From positions 1 to 50,129 of the forward strand of contig JAJISK010000001.1 of assembly GCA_022848785.1 (NCBI GenBank): a stretch of 50,129 bases of DNA, in the 5' to 3' direction. Source of the DNA: Thermoplasmatota archaeon (GTDB taxonomy: Archaea > Thermoplasmatota > Thermoplasmata > RBG-16-68-12 > JAJISG01). Positions 8,533 through 27,015 of the stretch are shown here, piece by piece (the stretch's first letter is position 1; each line of letters starts with the position of its first letter). The position numbers and the translations under genes are program-made. The notes beneath the pieces are model-generated. The model saw only the letters and a list, made by a program, of their open reading frames with translations, searched no databases and was not told where the DNA came from.

Positions 8533-8703
8533 ATGGTCGATATGTTTACGTTCAAATGCCCGGAGTGCGGGGCGAGTTTCTACGTCTATCCCATCGGGGA
8601 GGGATACACCACGGCGAGCCTGGAGGCCTCACGAGGTACCAAGGCCGTGCCCGTCTACTGTCGGAACGACCACAAGAACATGGTCTATTGGACCAAGGAA
8701 TAG
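8533..8703 (+). CDS. 56-residue protein with a Cys/His putative zinc site
   Basis: Translation from the ATG at 8533 gives a 56-residue acidic-to-neutral protein starting MVDMFTFKCPECGASFYVYP and ending NDHKNMVYWTKE. A CPEC knuckle near residue 9 is followed about 30 residues later by Y-C-R-N-D-H, so Cys-x2-Cys plus Cys-x3-His could bind one zinc. I do not recognise a named family. A TATA-like box (AAAGGCTTATGG, 8495-8506) lies about 31 nt before the ATG, arguing for a leaderless real gene separate from the preceding ribosomal operon. Its position beside ribosomal and RNA polymerase genes hints at a role in information processing, but that is only context. Confidence 0.75.
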   Translation: MVDMFTFKCPECGASFYVYPIGEGYTTASLEASRGTKAVPVYCRNDHKNMVYWTKE

Positions 8704-8733
8704 CGCCCCGGCCCCCATGGCTTTCTGAGCCCC

Positions 8734-8746
8734 CTATAGATATATC
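8734..8746 (+). promoter_or_regulatory. TATA box for tRNA-Arg
   Basis: CTATAGATATATC is centred about 30 nt before the first base of the tRNA at 8771, the expected distance for archaeal initiation just before a mature 5' end. Confidence 0.75.
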
Positions 8747-8787
8747 GCGTTGGGTCCTTCCCGCCTTCGCGGGCCTGTAGTGTAGCT

Positions 8788-8817
8788 ATCCTGCGCGCCG
8801 CACGTGCCGGACTGCAA
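8788..8817 (+). other. Predicted 30-nt tRNA intron in the D-loop
   Basis: A bulge-helix-bulge can be drawn: central helix GUAG (8782-8785) with CUGC (8812-8815), bulges CUA (8786-8788) and AAU (8816-8818), and inner helix UCC/GGA. Cutting after the second base of each bulge removes exactly 30 nt and leaves a normal D-loop. The outer helix is weak, as in relaxed motifs. Confidence 0.75.
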
Positions 8818-8860
8818 TGGACATCACAGGGGCCTCCGGAGCCCCGAACCTGGGTTCGAA

Positions 8861-8881
8861 AGGCCCTCGAGGGCCAGAAAT
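8861..8881 (+). other. Predicted 21-nt tRNA intron in the T-loop
   Basis: The intron folds as GGCCC-UCGA-GGGCC. Around it, outer helix GGG/CCC, central helix UUCG/AGAA (three pairs plus G-A), and bulges AAA (8859-8861) and AUU (8880-8882) form a bulge-helix-bulge. Cutting after the second base of each bulge regenerates the canonical T-loop TTCGAAT. Confidence 0.8.
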
Positions 8882-8923
8882 TCCCGGCAGGCCCGCTCCT
8901 GCCCCGCGGCAACGGCTTAACGG

Positions 8924-9508
8924 ATGCCCTCTCTGCCTAGGCCCGTGGTGAGGCTCGAGCGGCCCCCAGACGAGGAGGTCGATCGGCTCCTCCAGAAATA
9001 CGGGCGGATTCGGCGTCGTGTTGTCGACTGGGACAGGCGGGACCGCGACGAACCCGAGGAACCCCCATGCGATGGCGAGGTTGTGCCGCTCGTGCGGGAT
9101 GCTGATGGCCGTCTCGCGGTGGTCCGGCATCGAGAGGGATCCCAGGACTTCCTCCTCCCGACCGGCCGCATCCAGCCCGGGGAGGGGGTCGAGGAGGCTG
9201 CCCTGCGCGAGGCCCTGGAAGAGACGGGTTGCCACGTAGCCATCGACGAGGTCCCCGCCCTCCACCGTATTCGGATTCGGTTTCGGGATGCCGAATGGGA
9301 ACGATGGTCCTTCCTCGTGCTGTGCCGTGTGCTTGCGGCGGAAGACGGTCCACGGGACACCGACGAGATTGAGGCCGTCAAGTTTGTCCACCTTCCCGGG
9401 GAGATGCCCATCGAGTGGGTGCAGTGGGAGTGGCCGATGTGGGTCCTCAAGGACGCCAGTCTCCTCCACCCGCACTCGTTCTTGTTGGGGAAGGCATCCA
9501 CGGACTGA
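8924..9508 (+). CDS. Nudix hydrolase
   Basis: The 194-residue protein contains a complete Nudix box, GRIQPGEG followed by EEAALREALEETG (about residues 80-103), that binds the catalytic metal and hydrolyses a nucleoside diphosphate linked to another group. An N-terminal extension of about 45 residues precedes the domain and contains the basic stretch KYGRIRRRVVDWDRRDRDEP. The C-terminal half has EWVQWEWPMWVLKD. The substrate cannot be told from sequence. It follows the tRNA by 28 bases and is convergent with a second, unrelated-in-detail Nudix gene 13 bases away. The TATA-like GGCTTAACG near 8910 is too close to the ATG at 8924, so either the start lies further in or the promoter is upstream. 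Confidence 0.87.
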   Translation: MPSLPRPVVRLERPPDEEVDRLLQKYGRIRRRVVDWDRRDRDEPEEPPCDGEVVPLVRDADGRLAVVRHREGSQDFLLPTGRIQPGEGVEEAALREALEETGCHVAIDEVPALHRIRIRFRDAEWERWSFLVLCRVLAAEDGPRDTDEIEAVKFVHLPGEMPIEWVQWEWPMWVLKDASLLHPHSFLLGKASTD

Positions 9509-12135: not shown

Positions 12136-12429
12136 CTACCGTACCTTGCGCAAGTGCTCGGGGGTCGCGATCACCCGCTTGATGAGGCCCCCCTGCCGTA
12201 CGGCCACCACGTACGCCCGGCCCCGTCGCTCCTCTACCGTCCCCGTCAGGCCGTGGTAGCGCTTGTTGGGCTGGCCCTTGTGGACGCTCGGATCGATGAC
12301 GATGGCGGCCTTCTCGCCGGGGACGAAGGGGGTGAAGAAATGCGTGACAGGAGGGAGTCCTCTATCCCGGGGTCGTTTCCGGAACTTCCGTCGCGTCCTG
12401 CGCCTTGGACCCTTGGAGGCCTTGACCAT
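12136..12429 (-). CDS. rpl21e: Large ribosomal subunit protein eL21
   Basis: The 97-residue protein starts MVKASKGPRRRTRRKFRKR and contains the eL21 segments KAAIVIDPSVHKGQPNKRYH and LTGTVEERRGRAYVV. I placed the start at 12429 because the family begins at this basic N-terminus; the open frame upstream lies inside pus10. As a result the first 68 bases of this gene overlap the end of pus10 in another frame. Confidence 0.95.
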   Translation of the reverse strand: MVKASKGPRRRTRRKFRKRPRDRGLPPVTHFFTPFVPGEKAAIVIDPSVHKGQPNKRYHGLTGTVEERRGRAYVVAVRQGGLIKRVIATPEHLRKVR

Positions 12430-13645
12430 ACGCTCCCTCGTCGTGTACCTCGAGAACGTCCAAGCGCTCCACTTGAGCCTCGGTCTCCAGCAGTGCGGCC
12501 AGGCTGGGACGCGTCCGGCCCTCGTCTCCGTGGACCAGTTCCTTGATGTAGGTCCCGGCCTCGGCCCGGATCCGAAGCTCGACCTCCGTGCCGTGGGCTT
12601 GAAGGACCTCGGCGTCCACAACCCGTTTGACGCGCTCTCGGTCGGCCCGACGGTGGGAGACCCTGGCGGGAGTTCTCTGGACGATCTCCTTGCCCTTCAA
12701 TGCGGCCACCGCTTCTTGAAGTTTTGCTAGGCTCGTGGGCGAACCCAATCGGACCCGGACGGCGTAGGATTTCTCGGATCGGAGGGCCTTGATGGCCACG
12801 ACCTCCTCCCGGGACGACAGACGCATCTCCGAGACGGAAACTTGTCCTCCGGGCTCGATCTCGAGCGCCACCGCCTCGTAATCCAGGGTCCGCCGACGAG
12901 GTCGTTGGATCTCGAAGACGAAGGGGCGCCCCCGGCCTAACATTCGCGCGTCGATGTCCTCCCGGCCCATGCCGTGGAAGGTGTGGTCCTCGCCCTCGAC
13001 CCGGGGCATGACGGCGGCGGCGATCACCTCCTCCACGCTCATCTCGTAGAGGGTTCCGCGGTGGTCACACGTCTCGCATCCCGCACCTCGACAGTCCGGA
13101 CACGGCCATTTCGTCTGCGGCATGGGGGCCAGCTTCCGGTAGCGACCGTACAGATAGAGTGGGGCCACCTGGAGGTCTACATGGTCCATCATCGTGTCGA
13201 TGACAGCGGCGATGGTGGGCCGCTGGAAGTCTACGGTCTGCCCGAGGCGCGCCTCCAAGAGCTTTCCCACCTCCCGATTGATCTCGGCCTTGATGGGTTC
13301 GTACGTGTCCAGACCCAGCTCCGCCCACAGAATCTCCTCTCGGTTCAGGACATCGGGGTCCACGCGCGAGCCCACGAGAAAGCTGTCGAAGTCCCACCCC
13401 TCGAGGGCGGCCGCAACCAGGTCGGCAAACGTGGGGATTTCCTCCATGAGGCCCTTGCAGAGCCAGCAGGCAGCGGGGGCCTCCAAGCCGAGGCTCGCCA
13501 AGACTCGGCGGCCACGCTCCCGGTTCGTCAGCCCCGTGTCCACCTTCGCGAAGAGACGTCCTAGACAGGAGGGACAGAGGGGGGTCTTGGCGAAGACGCG
13601 ACGCGTATCCTCCTCGGCCTCCGGCGGCGGAATCGGGAGAGCCAC
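12362..13645 (-). CDS. pus10: tRNA pseudouridine synthase Pus10
   Basis: The 427-residue protein matches archaeal Pus10, which makes pseudouridine 54 and/or 55 in the tRNA T-loop. The N-terminal zinc region has CPSC and CWLC, and a second Cys cluster CPDCRGAGCETC lies near residue 190. The catalytic segment is GREDIDARMLGRGRPFV near 236. The C-terminal PSUS fold ends with AGTYIKELVHGDEGRTRPS. After the family core (VERLDVLEVHDEG) about 30 extra residues run on and overlap the rpl21e coding region by 68 bases. Start is GTG 13645, 26 nt after a minus-strand TATA box (13668-13678). It heads the pus10-rpl21e-rpo4-DUF655 operon. Its substrate loop is the one interrupted by an intron in the tRNA-Arg gene nearby. 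Confidence 0.94.
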   Translation of the reverse strand: MALPIPPPEAEEDTRRVFAKTPLCPSCLGRLFAKVDTGLTNRERGRRVLASLGLEAPAACWLCKGLMEEIPTFADLVAAALEGWDFDSFLVGSRVDPDVLNREEILWAELGLDTYEPIKAEINREVGKLLEARLGQTVDFQRPTIAAVIDTMMDHVDLQVAPLYLYGRYRKLAPMPQTKWPCPDCRGAGCETCDHRGTLYEMSVEEVIAAAVMPRVEGEDHTFHGMGREDIDARMLGRGRPFVFEIQRPRRRTLDYEAVALEIEPGGQVSVSEMRLSSREEVVAIKALRSEKSYAVRVRLGSPTSLAKLQEAVAALKGKEIVQRTPARVSHRRADRERVKRVVDAEVLQAHGTEVELRIRAEAGTYIKELVHGDEGRTRPSLAALLETEAQVERLDVLEVHDEGAYGQGLQGSKAQDATEVPETTPG

Positions 13646-14290: not shown

Positions 14291-14347
14291 TCCGGATCAA
14301 CGGGAGCGCCGGGGGGGAGATTTCCGATATCCTTTTCGAACTCCCGC

Positions 14348-14378
14348 GGTGCGAAGCACCAGTAGCTCTCGAGGCTAC
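14348..14378 (+). repeat. Two adjacent short hairpins
   Basis: GGTGC-GAA-GCACC (14348-14360) is followed after one base by GTAGC-TCTCGAG-GCTAC (14362-14378). They lie between the Sec61 beta stop and the promoter of the ubiquitin-like gene, so they may mark a 3' end. No U-rich tract follows, and function is unproven. Confidence 0.4.
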
Positions 14379-14448
14379 CGCCTTGGCCTGGCTAGGCTAC
14401 CCCGGCCCGGAGACGCTTAATAGCCAACCAGGTCTTAAGTGGAACCCC

Positions 14449-23455: not shown

Positions 23456-24633
23456 GCGAGGCCTTCGACGTCCTCGTCATCGGCGGCGGCCCGGTGGGCG
23501 GCTACATGGCCCAGAAGGTGGCGGAAGCCGGCCGGAGTGTGGCCATCCTCGAAGAACACCGTGAAATCGGAGAACCCGTTCAGTGCGGAGGCATCTTCAC
23601 GCCGCGGGTCATGGACATGGTGGACTGCCGCAACACGATCCTGACGGACATCCAGGGCTGTGAGTTCTACTCCCCGAGCGGCCGGGAGCTCGTCGTCGAT
23701 GGCGGGGAGACGGAGGCCGTCGTGGTGGACCGGGCTGCCTTCGATCGCGAGGTGGTCAAGGGCGCGCTGCATGCCGGCGCCACGGTCTACCTCGGGACCC
23801 TCGCGACGGGCGTCGAACGAGAGGGGGGTGACCTCATCGTGCATGCCCGAGGAAACGGCGAGGCCGAGACCTTCAGGTGTAAGGTCCTCGTCGGAGCGGA
23901 CGGGGTGAAGGGAAACGTCACGAGATGGTTCGGCCTGGGTCGGCCGTACCGGATCCTGCCCGGGTTCGAGGCCGACGTCGTCGGCGCAGAGTATACCCGC
24001 GGTTACGTGAAGGTCTTCACGGGCCAGGCGGTCGCCCCGGGTTTCTTTGCGTGGCTTGTACCCGGCGCCCATACGGCGCGGGCCGGCCTCTGCCTCGGCC
24101 AGGGGAACGCCCGGCCCTACCTGAATCGGATGTTCACGGACGGACCCCCCTCCCGCTTCCTTGCCGACGCCCAGACCCTGGGCTACATCATTGGAGGCAT
24201 CCCGATCGGCGTGGCCAAGCGGACCTACGACGACGGAGTCATGATCGCGGGCGACGCGGCCTACCAGGCCAAGGCCACGAGCGGGGGGGGCATCTTCACC
24301 GGACTCGTCTGCGCCGAGGCATGCGCCCGCACGGCGGTCGAGGCCCTAAACGCCGGAGATACCTCGGCCGCGTTCCTGTCCCGGTACGAGACCCGGTGGA
24401 AGGAAGCCATCGGCAAGGAGCTGAGCCTGTACCTGTACCTACACCGGGCCTTCGTGAAGCTCAGCGATCCCCAGCTGGAGAGCCTCTTCGTGCTCCTCCA
24501 GAATCCGCGGCTCCTCCGCATCATCAACCAGCAAGGTGACATCGACTACCCCGGCCGGGCGATCCTGGCCCTCCTCAAGGAAGAACCGCGTCTCCTCAAA
24601 TTCCTGGGACCCGCCCTCCGGGCCGTCTTCTAG
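23452..24633 (+). CDS. Geranylgeranyl reductase family protein (copy 1)
   Basis: The 393-residue FAD protein starts at GTG 23452, overlapping the TrmB stop. It has the dinucleotide-binding DVLVIGGGPVGGYMAQKVAE, the GGR motif GEPVQCGGIFTPRV, GADGVKGNVTRWFGLG, and the second FAD motif MIAGDAAYQAKATSGGGIFTG. GGR enzymes saturate isoprenoid double bonds in archaeal lipids or quinone side chains. The usual GDAAGxxxPxxGGG motif is varied here (AYQAKATSGGG), which may mean a different substrate from copy 2. It is co-transcribed with TrmB and converges on the beta-CASP gene with a four-base overlap. Confidence 0.9.
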   Translation: MSEAFDVLVIGGGPVGGYMAQKVAEAGRSVAILEEHREIGEPVQCGGIFTPRVMDMVDCRNTILTDIQGCEFYSPSGRELVVDGGETEAVVVDRAAFDREVVKGALHAGATVYLGTLATGVEREGGDLIVHARGNGEAETFRCKVLVGADGVKGNVTRWFGLGRPYRILPGFEADVVGAEYTRGYVKVFTGQAVAPGFFAWLVPGAHTARAGLCLGQGNARPYLNRMFTDGPPSRFLADAQTLGYIIGGIPIGVAKRTYDDGVMIAGDAAYQAKATSGGGIFTGLVCAEACARTAVEALNAGDTSAAFLSRYETRWKEAIGKELSLYLYLHRAFVKLSDPQLESLFVLLQNPRLLRIINQQGDIDYPGRAILALLKEEPRLLKFLGPALRAVF

Positions 24634-25853
24634 AGCGTGTGGCGCTCGCCGTCCTCCGGCAAGATGACGTCCCTGCCTTCCAACGCCTCCGCCAGCTCCT
24701 CGCGGGCATCCCCGTGCATGAGCACGACGCGCGTCGGATCGCAGCCCTCCACGAACTCCACGAGCTTGGCATGCCCGGCGTGGGCGGAGAAATCGTGGGA
24801 AGAGATCTCGGCCTCCACGGGGACACGTACGCCCTGCAATTCGATGTTGCGTGTGTCCAGCAGCAGGCGCCCGTTCGTGCCCTCCACCTGATAGCCGGTC
24901 AGCAGGACCTCGCTCTGCAGGTCATCTTTCAGCGCGGCGAGGTAGTGCAAGACAGGTCCCCCGGACAGCATGCCTCCCGTGGTGAGGATTACGTCCCCGC
25001 GCAAGGCGCGATCCCGGGCCGCCTGCGAGTGGACGATGCGCGCTCGGCCCAGAGCCCGCTCGTATCGCTTGGGGGAACGGATGAAACGACGATGGCGCTG
25101 GTACATGCGCGCCACCTGCCGTCCCATCCCGTCCACCCAAATCTCGTGATCCGTCTCGGCGAGAACCATGAGAACCTCTTGGGTCCGGGCGACGGCGAAA
25201 CAAGGGACGAGGGCCGTCCCGCCCCGCTCCACCACCTCGTCGATCCGGGCGAGGAACTGGGCCTCGGTCTGGGCCCGATCCGGATGGTGACGACCCGCGT
25301 ACGTGGACTCCAGAACGAGGACGTCGCAAGGCACAGGCTGCGTGCCGCGGACGAGATGCGTGTCGATGGTCTGGAGATCGCCGGTAAAGAGGACGGTCTC
25401 CCGGTCATTGATGCGGAACATGGAGGACCCGGGAATGTGCCCCGCCGAATGGACATCCACTTCCAGGTTGCCCACCTGGAACGTGTCGCCATAATCGACG
25501 GCCACGACACCCTGGTTCATGGTCTGGACGTCCTCCCGGTCGAAGGGCTCCGGATAGCCCTCGGCGGCGCTGATCTTGAGGCTGTCCTTCAGAAGGAGGT
25601 TTGCGACCTCCTGGGTGACGGGGGTCGTGTAAGTCTTCGTCTCCGACTGACGCGAGACGACGGGGACCATCCCGCAATGGTCCAGATGCGAATGGCTCAG
25701 GAGGAGAGCGTCCACAGGCGGGGCCTCCATGGGGTACTGGGGAGGGTCCGATGGGGCCAGCCCGTAGTCGCAGAGCAGTGTGGTCCCTTGATCGCGTAGG
25801 AGCATGCCGAGGCGACCGACCTCCGCGGCTCCACCCAAGAATTGGATGTCCAT
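24630..25853 (-). CDS. Beta-CASP metallo-beta-lactamase ribonuclease (aCPSF2-like)
   Basis: From ATG 25853 the 407-residue protein begins MDIQFLGGAAEVGRLGMLL. It has all metallo-beta-lactamase motifs: HSHLDHCG (54-61), SAGHIPGSSM, FTGDLQ, and the beta-CASP motifs A (LESTYAGR), B (SSHDFSAHAGH) and C (VLMHGD). There is no N-terminal KH pair, so it resembles aCPSF2 rather than aCPSF1; such enzymes process RNA 3' ends or degrade RNA. The open frame extends upstream to 26177 but that part overlaps the next gene and is not family-like. It follows the second GGR gene by 79 bases. Confidence 0.93.
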   Translation of the reverse strand: MDIQFLGGAAEVGRLGMLLRDQGTTLLCDYGLAPSDPPQYPMEAPPVDALLLSHSHLDHCGMVPVVSRQSETKTYTTPVTQEVANLLLKDSLKISAAEGYPEPFDREDVQTMNQGVVAVDYGDTFQVGNLEVDVHSAGHIPGSSMFRINDRETVLFTGDLQTIDTHLVRGTQPVPCDVLVLESTYAGRHHPDRAQTEAQFLARIDEVVERGGTALVPCFAVARTQEVLMVLAETDHEIWVDGMGRQVARMYQRHRRFIRSPKRYERALGRARIVHSQAARDRALRGDVILTTGGMLSGGPVLHYLAALKDDLQSEVLLTGYQVEGTNGRLLLDTRNIELQGVRVPVEAEISSHDFSAHAGHAKLVEFVEGCDPTRVVLMHGDAREELAEALEGRDVILPEDGERHTL

Positions 25854-25932
25854 TCGGGGCCTCCTAGACCCCCTCGCTCTTAAGCCTTCCCTGGCTGGTT
25901 CGAGGGGGGCATGGGCCGGCGAAACCCCGTCT

Positions 25933-27015
25933 CTAGCTTGTAACCCAGGAGAAGAGAGGCTCGCACCGAATGGCCGTGGCCATGGGCCGGGGCCCCAACA
26001 CCCGCATGATCCGTTCGAGCCAGAAATCGCTGGGGAAGAAGAGCTCCGCGAGTTTCCGCATGCGGACGCCCACGTCCAACGTACTGCCCACCGCCGCACG
26101 CCATCCGGCTTCATACGCCTCGAGGGAGCTTCCATTCTGGAGATGATCTGCAATGGCGGCTCCCGCAATACGCGCACAAACCATGGCCGTGTTCACGCCG
26201 CCGCCGTTCGTCGGGATGACGTGACCGGCGGCATCCCCTACCAGGAGCACGTTGCCCTTCACGGTACGGGGGACACTGCCCATCTCCGGCACCCAACCCC
26301 CCGTCCGGCCGTCCGCGGTGAAGCCCATGTGATCGAGAAATTGCTGGAGGAGGCCATCCAGGCGTCCTTCATACTTCGGCCAGACCCCGAGTCCGACGTT
26401 GGCGGCTCCGCGCTTGGGGATGACCCACGCGTACCCTCCGGGCGCCGGGCTCCCGAAATGGATGTCCAGGGAATCTCCGAACGTTCCCTCGACCTCGCAG
26501 GTGATCGCCGCGGCCAGGGGGGAGGGGGAGGGGAGGCCGACCGACTTGGCGACCGTCGAATGGGGACCGTCTGCTCCCACGACGACTCGCCCTTCGAACG
26601 TCCCTCGGGAGGTCTCCACCCTGTTTCCCCGGACCCGGCGGACGCGGGAATCCGTGAGGATCTCGGCCCCTTCTCGCTCGGCCAGACGGGCCCAGTGGGG
26701 ATCCACCCGATCCCGGGACACCGTATAGCCCTCAAAGGGGACGTCGTAGCTTCGGCCCGAGGGGCTGAAAATCCGAATGACGTGAGTCCGAGCTTCCTTG
26801 AGCGACGCAGGGAGGTCGAAGAGGGAGGCCACCTCGCCGGCAAGTGGGAACAAGGCCTCCACCTCGCGGTTGGAAGCCATGTACTCCCCGCACTGGACGG
26901 GGAAACCAATGGTCCTCCGCCGCTCGAGGACCAGGGTTCGTAGTCCTCGCAGGGCTGTGTAGCGTGCGGTCGTGCTTCCCGCGGGTCCGGCCCCGACGAC
27001 GACTACGTCGTAGAT
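25933..27015 (-). CDS. Geranylgeranyl reductase family protein (copy 2), start codon unclear
   Basis: Family similarity begins at about 27015 with IYDVVVVGAGPAGSTTARY (FAD-binding), followed by GFPVQCGEYMAS, GADGPHSTVAKSVGLPS and the second FAD motif VGDAAGHVIPTNGGGVNTAM. About 360 residues. No ATG, GTG or TTG exists in this frame near the expected start: the codon there is ATC, and the frame stays open without a start into the preceding methyltransferase gene. The first conventional ATG (26880) would remove the FAD motif. A missing base near the junction, giving a GTG start at 27024 region, or a non-standard start, would explain this. It is in line with the prenyl synthase and methyltransferase genes and may hydrogenate their quinone product. 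Confidence 0.85.
   Translation of the reverse strand: MYDVVVVGAGPAGSTTARYTALRGLRTLVLERRRTIGFPVQCGEYMASNREVEALFPLAGEVASLFDLPASLKEARTHVIRIFSPSGRSYDVPFEGYTVSRDRVDPHWARLAEREGAEILTDSRVRRVRGNRVETSRGTFEGRVVVGADGPHSTVAKSVGLPSPSPLAAAITCEVEGTFGDSLDIHFGSPAPGGYAWVIPKRGAANVGLGVWPKYEGRLDGLLQQFLDHMGFTADGRTGGWVPEMGSVPRTVKGNVLLVGDAAGHVIPTNGGGVNTAMVCARIAGAAIADHLQNGSSLEAYEAGWRAAVGSTLDVGVRMRKLAELFFPSDFWLERIMRVLGPRPMATAIRCEPLFSWVTS

Follow-up and report, generated by a model that had tools for sequence, protein, structure and literature searches.

A twice-interrupted tRNA-Arg(CCG) gene and the spread of T-arm introns in Thermoplasmatota

Results

Gene structure at the locus

The DNA analyzed here, referred to below as the window, is a stretch of 50,129 nucleotides (nt) from a Thermoplasmatota archaeon (assembly GCA_022848785.1, contig JAJISK010000001.1), and its forward strand carries a gene for tRNA-Arg(CCG) at 8771..8895 that is composed of three exons and two introns. 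The gene spans 125 nt, of which 74 nt would remain in the mature tRNA without CCA. Exon 1 (8771..8787) supplies the 5' strands of the acceptor stem and D-stem together with the D-loop to nt 17, where a 30-nt D-loop intron (8788..8817) intervenes between nt 17 and 17a. Exon 2 (8818..8860) holds the remaining D-loop, the entire anticodon arm with its CCG, the variable region, the 5' strand of the T-stem and the TTCGAA of the T-loop. A 21-nt T-loop intron (8861..8881) follows at position 59/60, and exon 3 (8882..8895) provides the final T-loop base, the 3' strands of the T-stem and acceptor stem and the discriminator G. A TATA-like box recognized by eye lies 25-36 nt 5' of the gene on the same strand (8735..8746) and differs at its first base only in the corresponding locus of a sister genome (locus L001, genome G001). 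CGG is the commonest arginine codon in 18 open reading frames of the window (168/499).

Inspection of the intact window with ARAGORN, run with no intron option, yields no tRNA call, and Rfam reports no tRNA at the gathering score in the window, nor at E<=1 in 8600-9100. When both insertions are deleted, ARAGORN calls tRNA-Arg(ccg) with seven acceptor, five anticodon, five T-stem and three D-stem pairs, leaving 13-22 in the D-stem unpaired. If only the D insertion is deleted, the call is an Arg(ccg) whose acceptor stem has two mismatches and whose T-arm is displaced; if only the T insertion is deleted, default settings give no call and laxer options yield poor or false folds. Removing both insertions restores the D-loop AGCTTGGACA and the T-loop TTCGAAT exactly. 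A preliminary description of the locus, made from the letters alone, had proposed these coordinates, a clean tRNA upon removal of both insertions, two introns of the bulge-helix-bulge (BHB) type, an uninterrupted anticodon loop and cut sites that regenerate both loops; all of this holds. An alternative D-loop register leaving a 7-nt loop was rejected, since intact genes of relatives carry AGCTTGGA or AGCCTGGA at this place.

A tRNA descriptor that tolerates inserted sequence in each of the three loops (D, anticodon and T) finds two matches in the real window and none in 100 dinucleotide shuffles. One match is the tRNA-Arg(CCG) gene and the other is tRNA-Ser(CGA), the second interrupted tRNA of the window (body to the acceptor-stem end, 14308..14406, minus strand). 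With the junctions fixed and the introns shuffled, the observed pairing score of the tRNA-Arg(CCG) introns is reached in 15/20,000 trials for the D intron and 113/20,000 for the T intron.

Folding of the two introns

The T intron is predicted to fold into a BHB motif (8855..8882) with its central helix at 8855-8858/8876-8879, bulges at 8859-8861 and 8880-8882, an inner helix of 5-6 pairs (8862-8866/8871-8875) and an outer helix that is the T-stem itself, with five pairs. The D intron folds into a BHB-like motif (8782..8818) with a central helix at 8782-8785/8812-8815, where 4/4 pairs form, and bulges at 8786-8788 and 8816-8818. Its inner helix has three pairs and its outer helix only one, which places the predicted 3' site in an open loop and makes the motif a bulge-helix-loop and a looser substrate. 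Homodimeric endonucleases can cut bulge-helix-loop motifs (PMC8707768). Among Arg(CCG) genes with D-loop introns, the central helix joins GTAG with CTGC, CTAC or CTAT, changes that preserve pairing.

Covariation was assessed in an alignment of 13 interrupted T-arms. Standard pairs make up 94.5% of the proposed helices versus 74.5% after shuffling, and double-sided changes number 31 versus 9.1, with 0/500 shuffles as high in either measure; when the pairs that show such a change are counted instead, 7/500 shuffles come out as high. At loop base 57, six of these T-arms have A facing U and six others have G facing C; the exception is the Arg gene of the window, with G facing A. By this comparison, base 57 covaries with the T-loop intron. 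A further 53 T-arm introns outside the alignment come from loci retrieved with a model in which pairing raises the score, and thus offer confirmation and not an independent test; all four central pairs form in 52, and base 57 pairs with the intron in 52/53 (46 G-C, 6 A-U).

tRNA-Arg(CCG) in related genomes

The entire gene is present in sister genome G001 with two changes in 125 nt, compared with six in the 50 nt upstream. A search with the spliced form and a scan of the genome found no other CCG gene in G001, including the uninterrupted second copy that the preliminary description had named as evidence that would count against its reading. To survey relatives, the spliced 74-mer was searched in G001 and 40 relatives, and 30 loci plus one later stretch were inspected, which decided the state of Arg(CCG) in 22/41 genomes. 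Six carry both D and T introns (G001, G004, G009, G013, G019, G038), one the D intron only (G002), one the T intron only (G005) and one anticodon and T introns (G039). Uninterrupted 74-nt genes occur in 13 genomes (L233-L243, L245, L246) and align to the spliced form without gaps, so that exactly 8788-8817 and 8861-8881 are absent from them, as the proposed introns would predict. Sequence comparison shows the gene, its junctions, their pairing and their conservation, as well as the enzyme genes of the sister genome. Both introns also occur in Arg(CCG) of L370 and L375, and L358, on a Methanomassiliicoccales chromosome, has D, T and anticodon introns.

Of 18 further genomes among the 41, the fetched locus is another tRNA for G011, G014, G016, G025, G031, G035 and G037, and no locus was fetched for G003, G008, G010, G012, G015, G017, G018, G021, G022, G024 and G034. 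L241 (G020), counted among the intact genes, has an Arg(CCG)-like body but the anticodon CAG. L249 (G023), which at first resembled a case of D-loop interruption, holds an Arg(CCG) 3' part, and the 400 nt before it contain no recognizable 5' acceptor strand; the locus may be a truncated gene or an assembly break and was left out of the counts.

Other interrupted tRNAs in the window and the sister genome

tRNA-Ser(CGA) of the window contains a 14-nt T-loop intron (14321..14334, minus strand) at 59/60 with 4/4 central pairs, and its counterpart in the sister genome (contig C60) likewise has a T-loop intron. The descriptor was then applied to all of G001 (contigs C1-C68, 1,534,244 bases), where it requires GTTC, T8 and T33, so that introns at other positions would escape it. 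It finds 43 tRNA genes, 18 uninterrupted and 25 interrupted, and no tRNA in two shuffled G001 genomes. The 32 introns comprise 19 in anticodon loops, four in D-loops and nine in T-loops, and six genes have more than one. Neither Cys(GCA) nor Pro(UGG) turned up in G001, and Gly(CCC) was found by ARAGORN and Rfam only. The tRNA-Lys(UUU) gene (C57:23298-23469, minus strand) has three introns, in the D-, anticodon and T-loops; its D-loop intron lies near 20/21, unlike that of Arg(CCG) at 17. At C14:24385-24536, a tRNA with a CAT anticodon has insertions of ~40 nt in the D- and T-loops.

When the cut position is left free, 9/9 T-loop introns of G001 score best after loop base 6 (59/60), whether or not the T-stem is scored. 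For anticodon introns, 18/19 score best after loop base 6 (37/38), with one tie, when the stem is scored, and 15/19 do so when it is not, with one tie and three elsewhere. Judged by these scores, T-arm and anticodon-arm introns share one plan.

Spread of T-arm introns in the class

We built a T-arm intron covariance model and applied it to candidates from several genome sets (about 143-150 per genome in the searches of 41 relatives and of 43 genomes reached from named loci, 20 in a set of 300 genomes of the class and 41 in a control class). The model matches 40/41 relatives at E<=0.05, 23/43 genomes of the named-locus set at E<=1e-3 and at least 165/300 genomes of the class at E<=1e-4, the latter being a lower bound. 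The preliminary description had regarded the Arg(CCG) gene as an exception in its lineage, which these counts contradict. In the control class, that of a Methanoculleus genome, 0/149 genomes match despite more candidates per genome than in the 300, in a search that included no positive genome of its own.

Within the 43-genome set, no match was found in nine genomes titled Methanosarcinales, Methanophagales, Halobacteria, Methanoculleus, Methanoperedens or Methanomicrobia, nor in seven titled Thermoplasmata or Thermoplasmatota. G050, titled Methanomicrobia DTU008, has two matches; we take DTU008 to belong to Methanomassiliicoccales. Inspection of 71 loci fetched with the model reveals a tRNA with a T-loop insertion in 70, the exception being L374; overlap between tRNA and model match was not required, and in a run with a placement condition L386 and L387 are also missed. 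The three-intron form of Lys(UUU), interrupted in the D-, anticodon and T-loops, recurs in 21 fetched loci besides G001. Judging from these searches, loop introns are common in this archaeal branch and Arg(CCG) is no isolated oddity.

Splicing endonuclease and RtcB

G001 encodes one PF01974 protein (L081:1450-2514, minus strand) of 354 aa from a TTG start, with two repeats that are 34% identical, and no second endonuclease gene was found there; an RtcB gene is present. One fused two-repeat endonuclease was found in 39/41 relatives, G036 having an additional 77-aa fragment, and the same search gave no endonuclease match in G019 and G026. Y283, H298 and K329 of repeat 2 are invariant in 30 homologues and, assigned by motif, are the Tyr/His/Lys triad described in PMC12397907. 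Upon alignment to the A. pernix alpha subunit, the residues after K44 of its CSL specificity loop fall in a gap of the G001 enzyme, and none of the 30 aligned homologues has an insertion at that site; the alignment covered the CSL. The predicted structure of P0121, a 97% homologue of the G001 enzyme, matches Methanopyrus 5x89 and the A. fulgidus alpha'2 enzyme (1rlv, 2gjw) best in the PDB, with T. acidophilum alpha'2 and ARMAN epsilon2 tied below them. In its predicted structure, the enzyme shares the two-repeat fold of the A. fulgidus and T. acidophilum enzymes. On these sequence comparisons the lineage endonuclease is alpha'2-like and lacks the A. pernix-type specificity loop.

Neighboring genes and the Pus10 tree

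Outside the tRNA gene, the window encodes Pus10 (12362..13645, minus strand), a tRNA pseudouridine synthase named for T-loop sites 54/55. The preliminary description had placed it 3.5 kb from the tRNA, where it indeed lies, and had called the genome Thermoplasmata-like, in agreement with the nearest named relatives of this Pus10, which are Thermoplasmata metagenome-assembled genomes. We labeled 16 of the 39 rows of a Pus10 tree by Arg(CCG) state; the four states require three changes, where shuffled labels average 7.0 and 0/200 shuffles are as low. The seven labeled intact genomes fall in one clade together with the T-only G005, and the D+T state occurs in three separate branches, which favors ancestral introns with subsequent loss. 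This tree, whose deep branches are weakly supported, describes one gene with long branches, leaves L006 (D+T by L375) and G016 ungrouped and does not contain the intact G006, G020, G032, G036, G040 and G041. Read in this way, both introns probably date far back in Thermoplasmatota and have since disappeared from a large sub-clade, an age that we infer from sequence comparison.

Elsewhere in the window (24630-26177, minus strand) lies a beta-CASP protein of the metallo-beta-lactamase fold with a partial match to the aCPSF1 and type VII Cas14 models, below both cut-offs.

Discussion

The locus is very probably a functional gene for tRNA-Arg(CCG) whose two introns are of the archaeal BHB type and are spliced by the single fused endonuclease of the lineage. 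We infer transcription, cutting, ligation and the identity of the acting enzyme as follows. The precursor would be transcribed whole, and the fused two-repeat alpha'2-like endonuclease would cut the D-loop at 8787/8788 and 8817/8818 and the T-loop at 8860/8861 and 8881/8882, whereupon RtcB would ligate all three exons, yielding a standard tRNA of 74 nt. The T-arm appears to mimic the anticodon arm, with a 5-bp stem, a 7-nt loop and a cut after loop base 6, while T-loop bases 1-4 (TTCR) would pair with the intron to form the four-base central helix. The T-loop intron would work because T-arm geometry equals anticodon-arm geometry; that is to say, a BHB built on the T-stem would present to a narrow enzyme the shape that it meets in a 37/38 intron, and T-arm introns of that geometry could be cut by such an enzyme. 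The D-loop intron would be a harder substrate, with a 3-nt bulge, a four-base helix plus the inner helix and one outer pair, and its cutting is the weakest step of the model. Pairing of the T-loop with the intron would also hide U54 and U55. Pus4 of Cyanidioschyzon merolae is inactive on pre-tRNA with a T-arm intron (PMC9602550), and by analogy it is plausible that splicing precedes the action of Pus10, an order that the preliminary description had taken as necessary.

Several observations weigh against this account. G019 has both Arg introns yet no endonuclease match, and both enzyme and copy number are read from sister G001, a metagenome-assembled genome that may be incomplete. The central helix of the T intron in the window forms 3/4 pairs, with G57 facing A, the sole such case among 13 rows; the D intron has no outer helix beyond its one pair, and the D intron of L370 scores slightly higher in a register one base off. 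Splicing itself is deduced from sequence, and reviews grade alpha'2 enzymes as narrow (PMC6379350, PMC4033280).

The introns could instead be real and removed by a broad-specificity endonuclease of the heteromeric or epsilon type, as the preliminary description had suggested. PMC12397907 associates non-canonical introns with (alpha-beta)2 and epsilon2 enzymes that bear CSL and ASL loops, and the best structural match, Methanopyrus 5x89, is classed as an (alpha-beta)2 enzyme of constrained broad specificity. That suggestion fares poorly and we hold it quite improbable, given the one fused gene in all but two of the 41 relatives, the lack of a second gene in the G001 search and the gap at the A. 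pernix CSL residues, with no insertion in any homologue aligned. It is scarcely credible that the locus is a tRNA pseudogene, decayed and carrying two insertions, with another tRNA reading CGG. The tRNA-Arg(UCG) of G001 could read CGG by wobble, but the exons are clean, the gene is the sole CCG gene found in G001, and it has changed far less from its sister than the DNA just upstream. Identical junctions moreover recur in separate branches, where the introns have diverged and kept their pairing.

A further possibility concerns the age of the introns and not their splicing, namely that transposition brought them in recently and more than once, on the lines proposed for Thermoproteales, and that they are not ancestral. 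T-arm intron ends are common to different tRNAs and the intron state of Arg(CCG) differs between genomes, as such gains would produce. We nevertheless consider this unlikely in view of the few changes that the Pus10 tree requires relative to shuffled labels, the D+T state in three of its branches and the three-intron Lys(UUU) shared by 21 fetched loci and G001.

BHB introns, multiple introns per gene and position 59/60 are already known (PMC4090602). Thermoproteales and other Crenarchaeota, as described in PMC4090602 and PMC8450103, likewise have BHB introns outside 37/38, with up to three per gene and 59/60 among the listed positions, but theirs are paired with heterotetrameric broad enzymes and occupy many positions, whereas the T-loop introns of G001 all lie at 59/60 alongside a fused alpha'2-like enzyme. 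Multiple introns are also listed for Methanopyrus, Methanothermobacter and ARMAN, which are other lineages, with an (alpha-beta)2 enzyme in Methanopyrus and epsilon2 in ARMAN (PMC4033280). Asgard archaea (Atabeyarchaeia, Freyarchaeia) and Aigarchaeota (Ca. Caldiarchaeum), which belong to other phyla, resemble the present genomes in having many interrupted genes or multiple introns, including T-arm introns in Ca. Caldiarchaeum (PMC11291895, PMC3293823). In C. merolae, tRNA-Ile(UAU) has D-, anticodon and T-arm introns, the same arms as Lys(UUU) here, but this organism is a eukaryote with another splicing enzyme (PMC9602550). Canonical euryarchaeal 37/38 introns have the same loop geometry, and anticodon-loop introns, nearly all scoring best at 37/38, occur in 19 of the 43 scanned G001 tRNAs. 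Among enzymes of like two-repeat fold, the structure title of M. kandleri 5x89 names a subunit fusion, the enzyme being classed as (alpha-beta)2 of constrained broad specificity, and A. fulgidus alpha'2 is classed as narrow (PMC6379350). The BHB model of tRNAscan-SE 2.0 was derived from Crenarchaeota and Euryarchaeota (PMC8450103). No description of T-arm introns in either Thermoplasmatota or Methanomassiliicoccales, nor of this combination of lineage, prevalence and enzyme, came up in a literature search that did not extend to subscription papers or tRNA databases. What is new is likely a known element in an unexpected lineage, at high prevalence, with probable deep conservation and an enzyme type with which the current model does not pair it.

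Taken together, these observations allow a broader reading, which we offer as a speculation with the odds against it. Thermoplasmatota may have inherited the T-arm as a second anticodon-like arm, in which a strict 59/60 intron pairs with TTCR and is cut by a narrow alpha'2 enzyme without specificity loops. The intron could then be a selected checkpoint that places splicing before T-loop modification by hiding U54, U55 and their neighbors until it is removed, and it could also interrupt the gene in its 3' half, which integrases use. The notion that T-arm introns may break integrase sites is our own. If this joint regime is true, it would overturn the rule that pairs non-canonical introns with broad-specificity enzymes.

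According to reviews, Euryarchaeota have few tRNA introns (<10% of genes interrupted, PMC4090602), typically one per gene at the canonical 37/38, and narrow alpha4 or alpha'2 enzymes (PMC4090602, PMC4033280); PMC4033280 cites Methanopyrus and Methanothermobacter, with their multiple introns, as exceptions. A class conventionally grouped with Euryarchaeota here has widespread T-arm introns and three-intron genes alongside a fused alpha'2-like enzyme. tRNA genes can be overlooked in such genomes, as ARAGORN with no intron option and Rfam saw neither interrupted gene of the window. If the fused enzyme does cut the introns of this class, the model in which enzyme type and intron position co-evolve would need revision.
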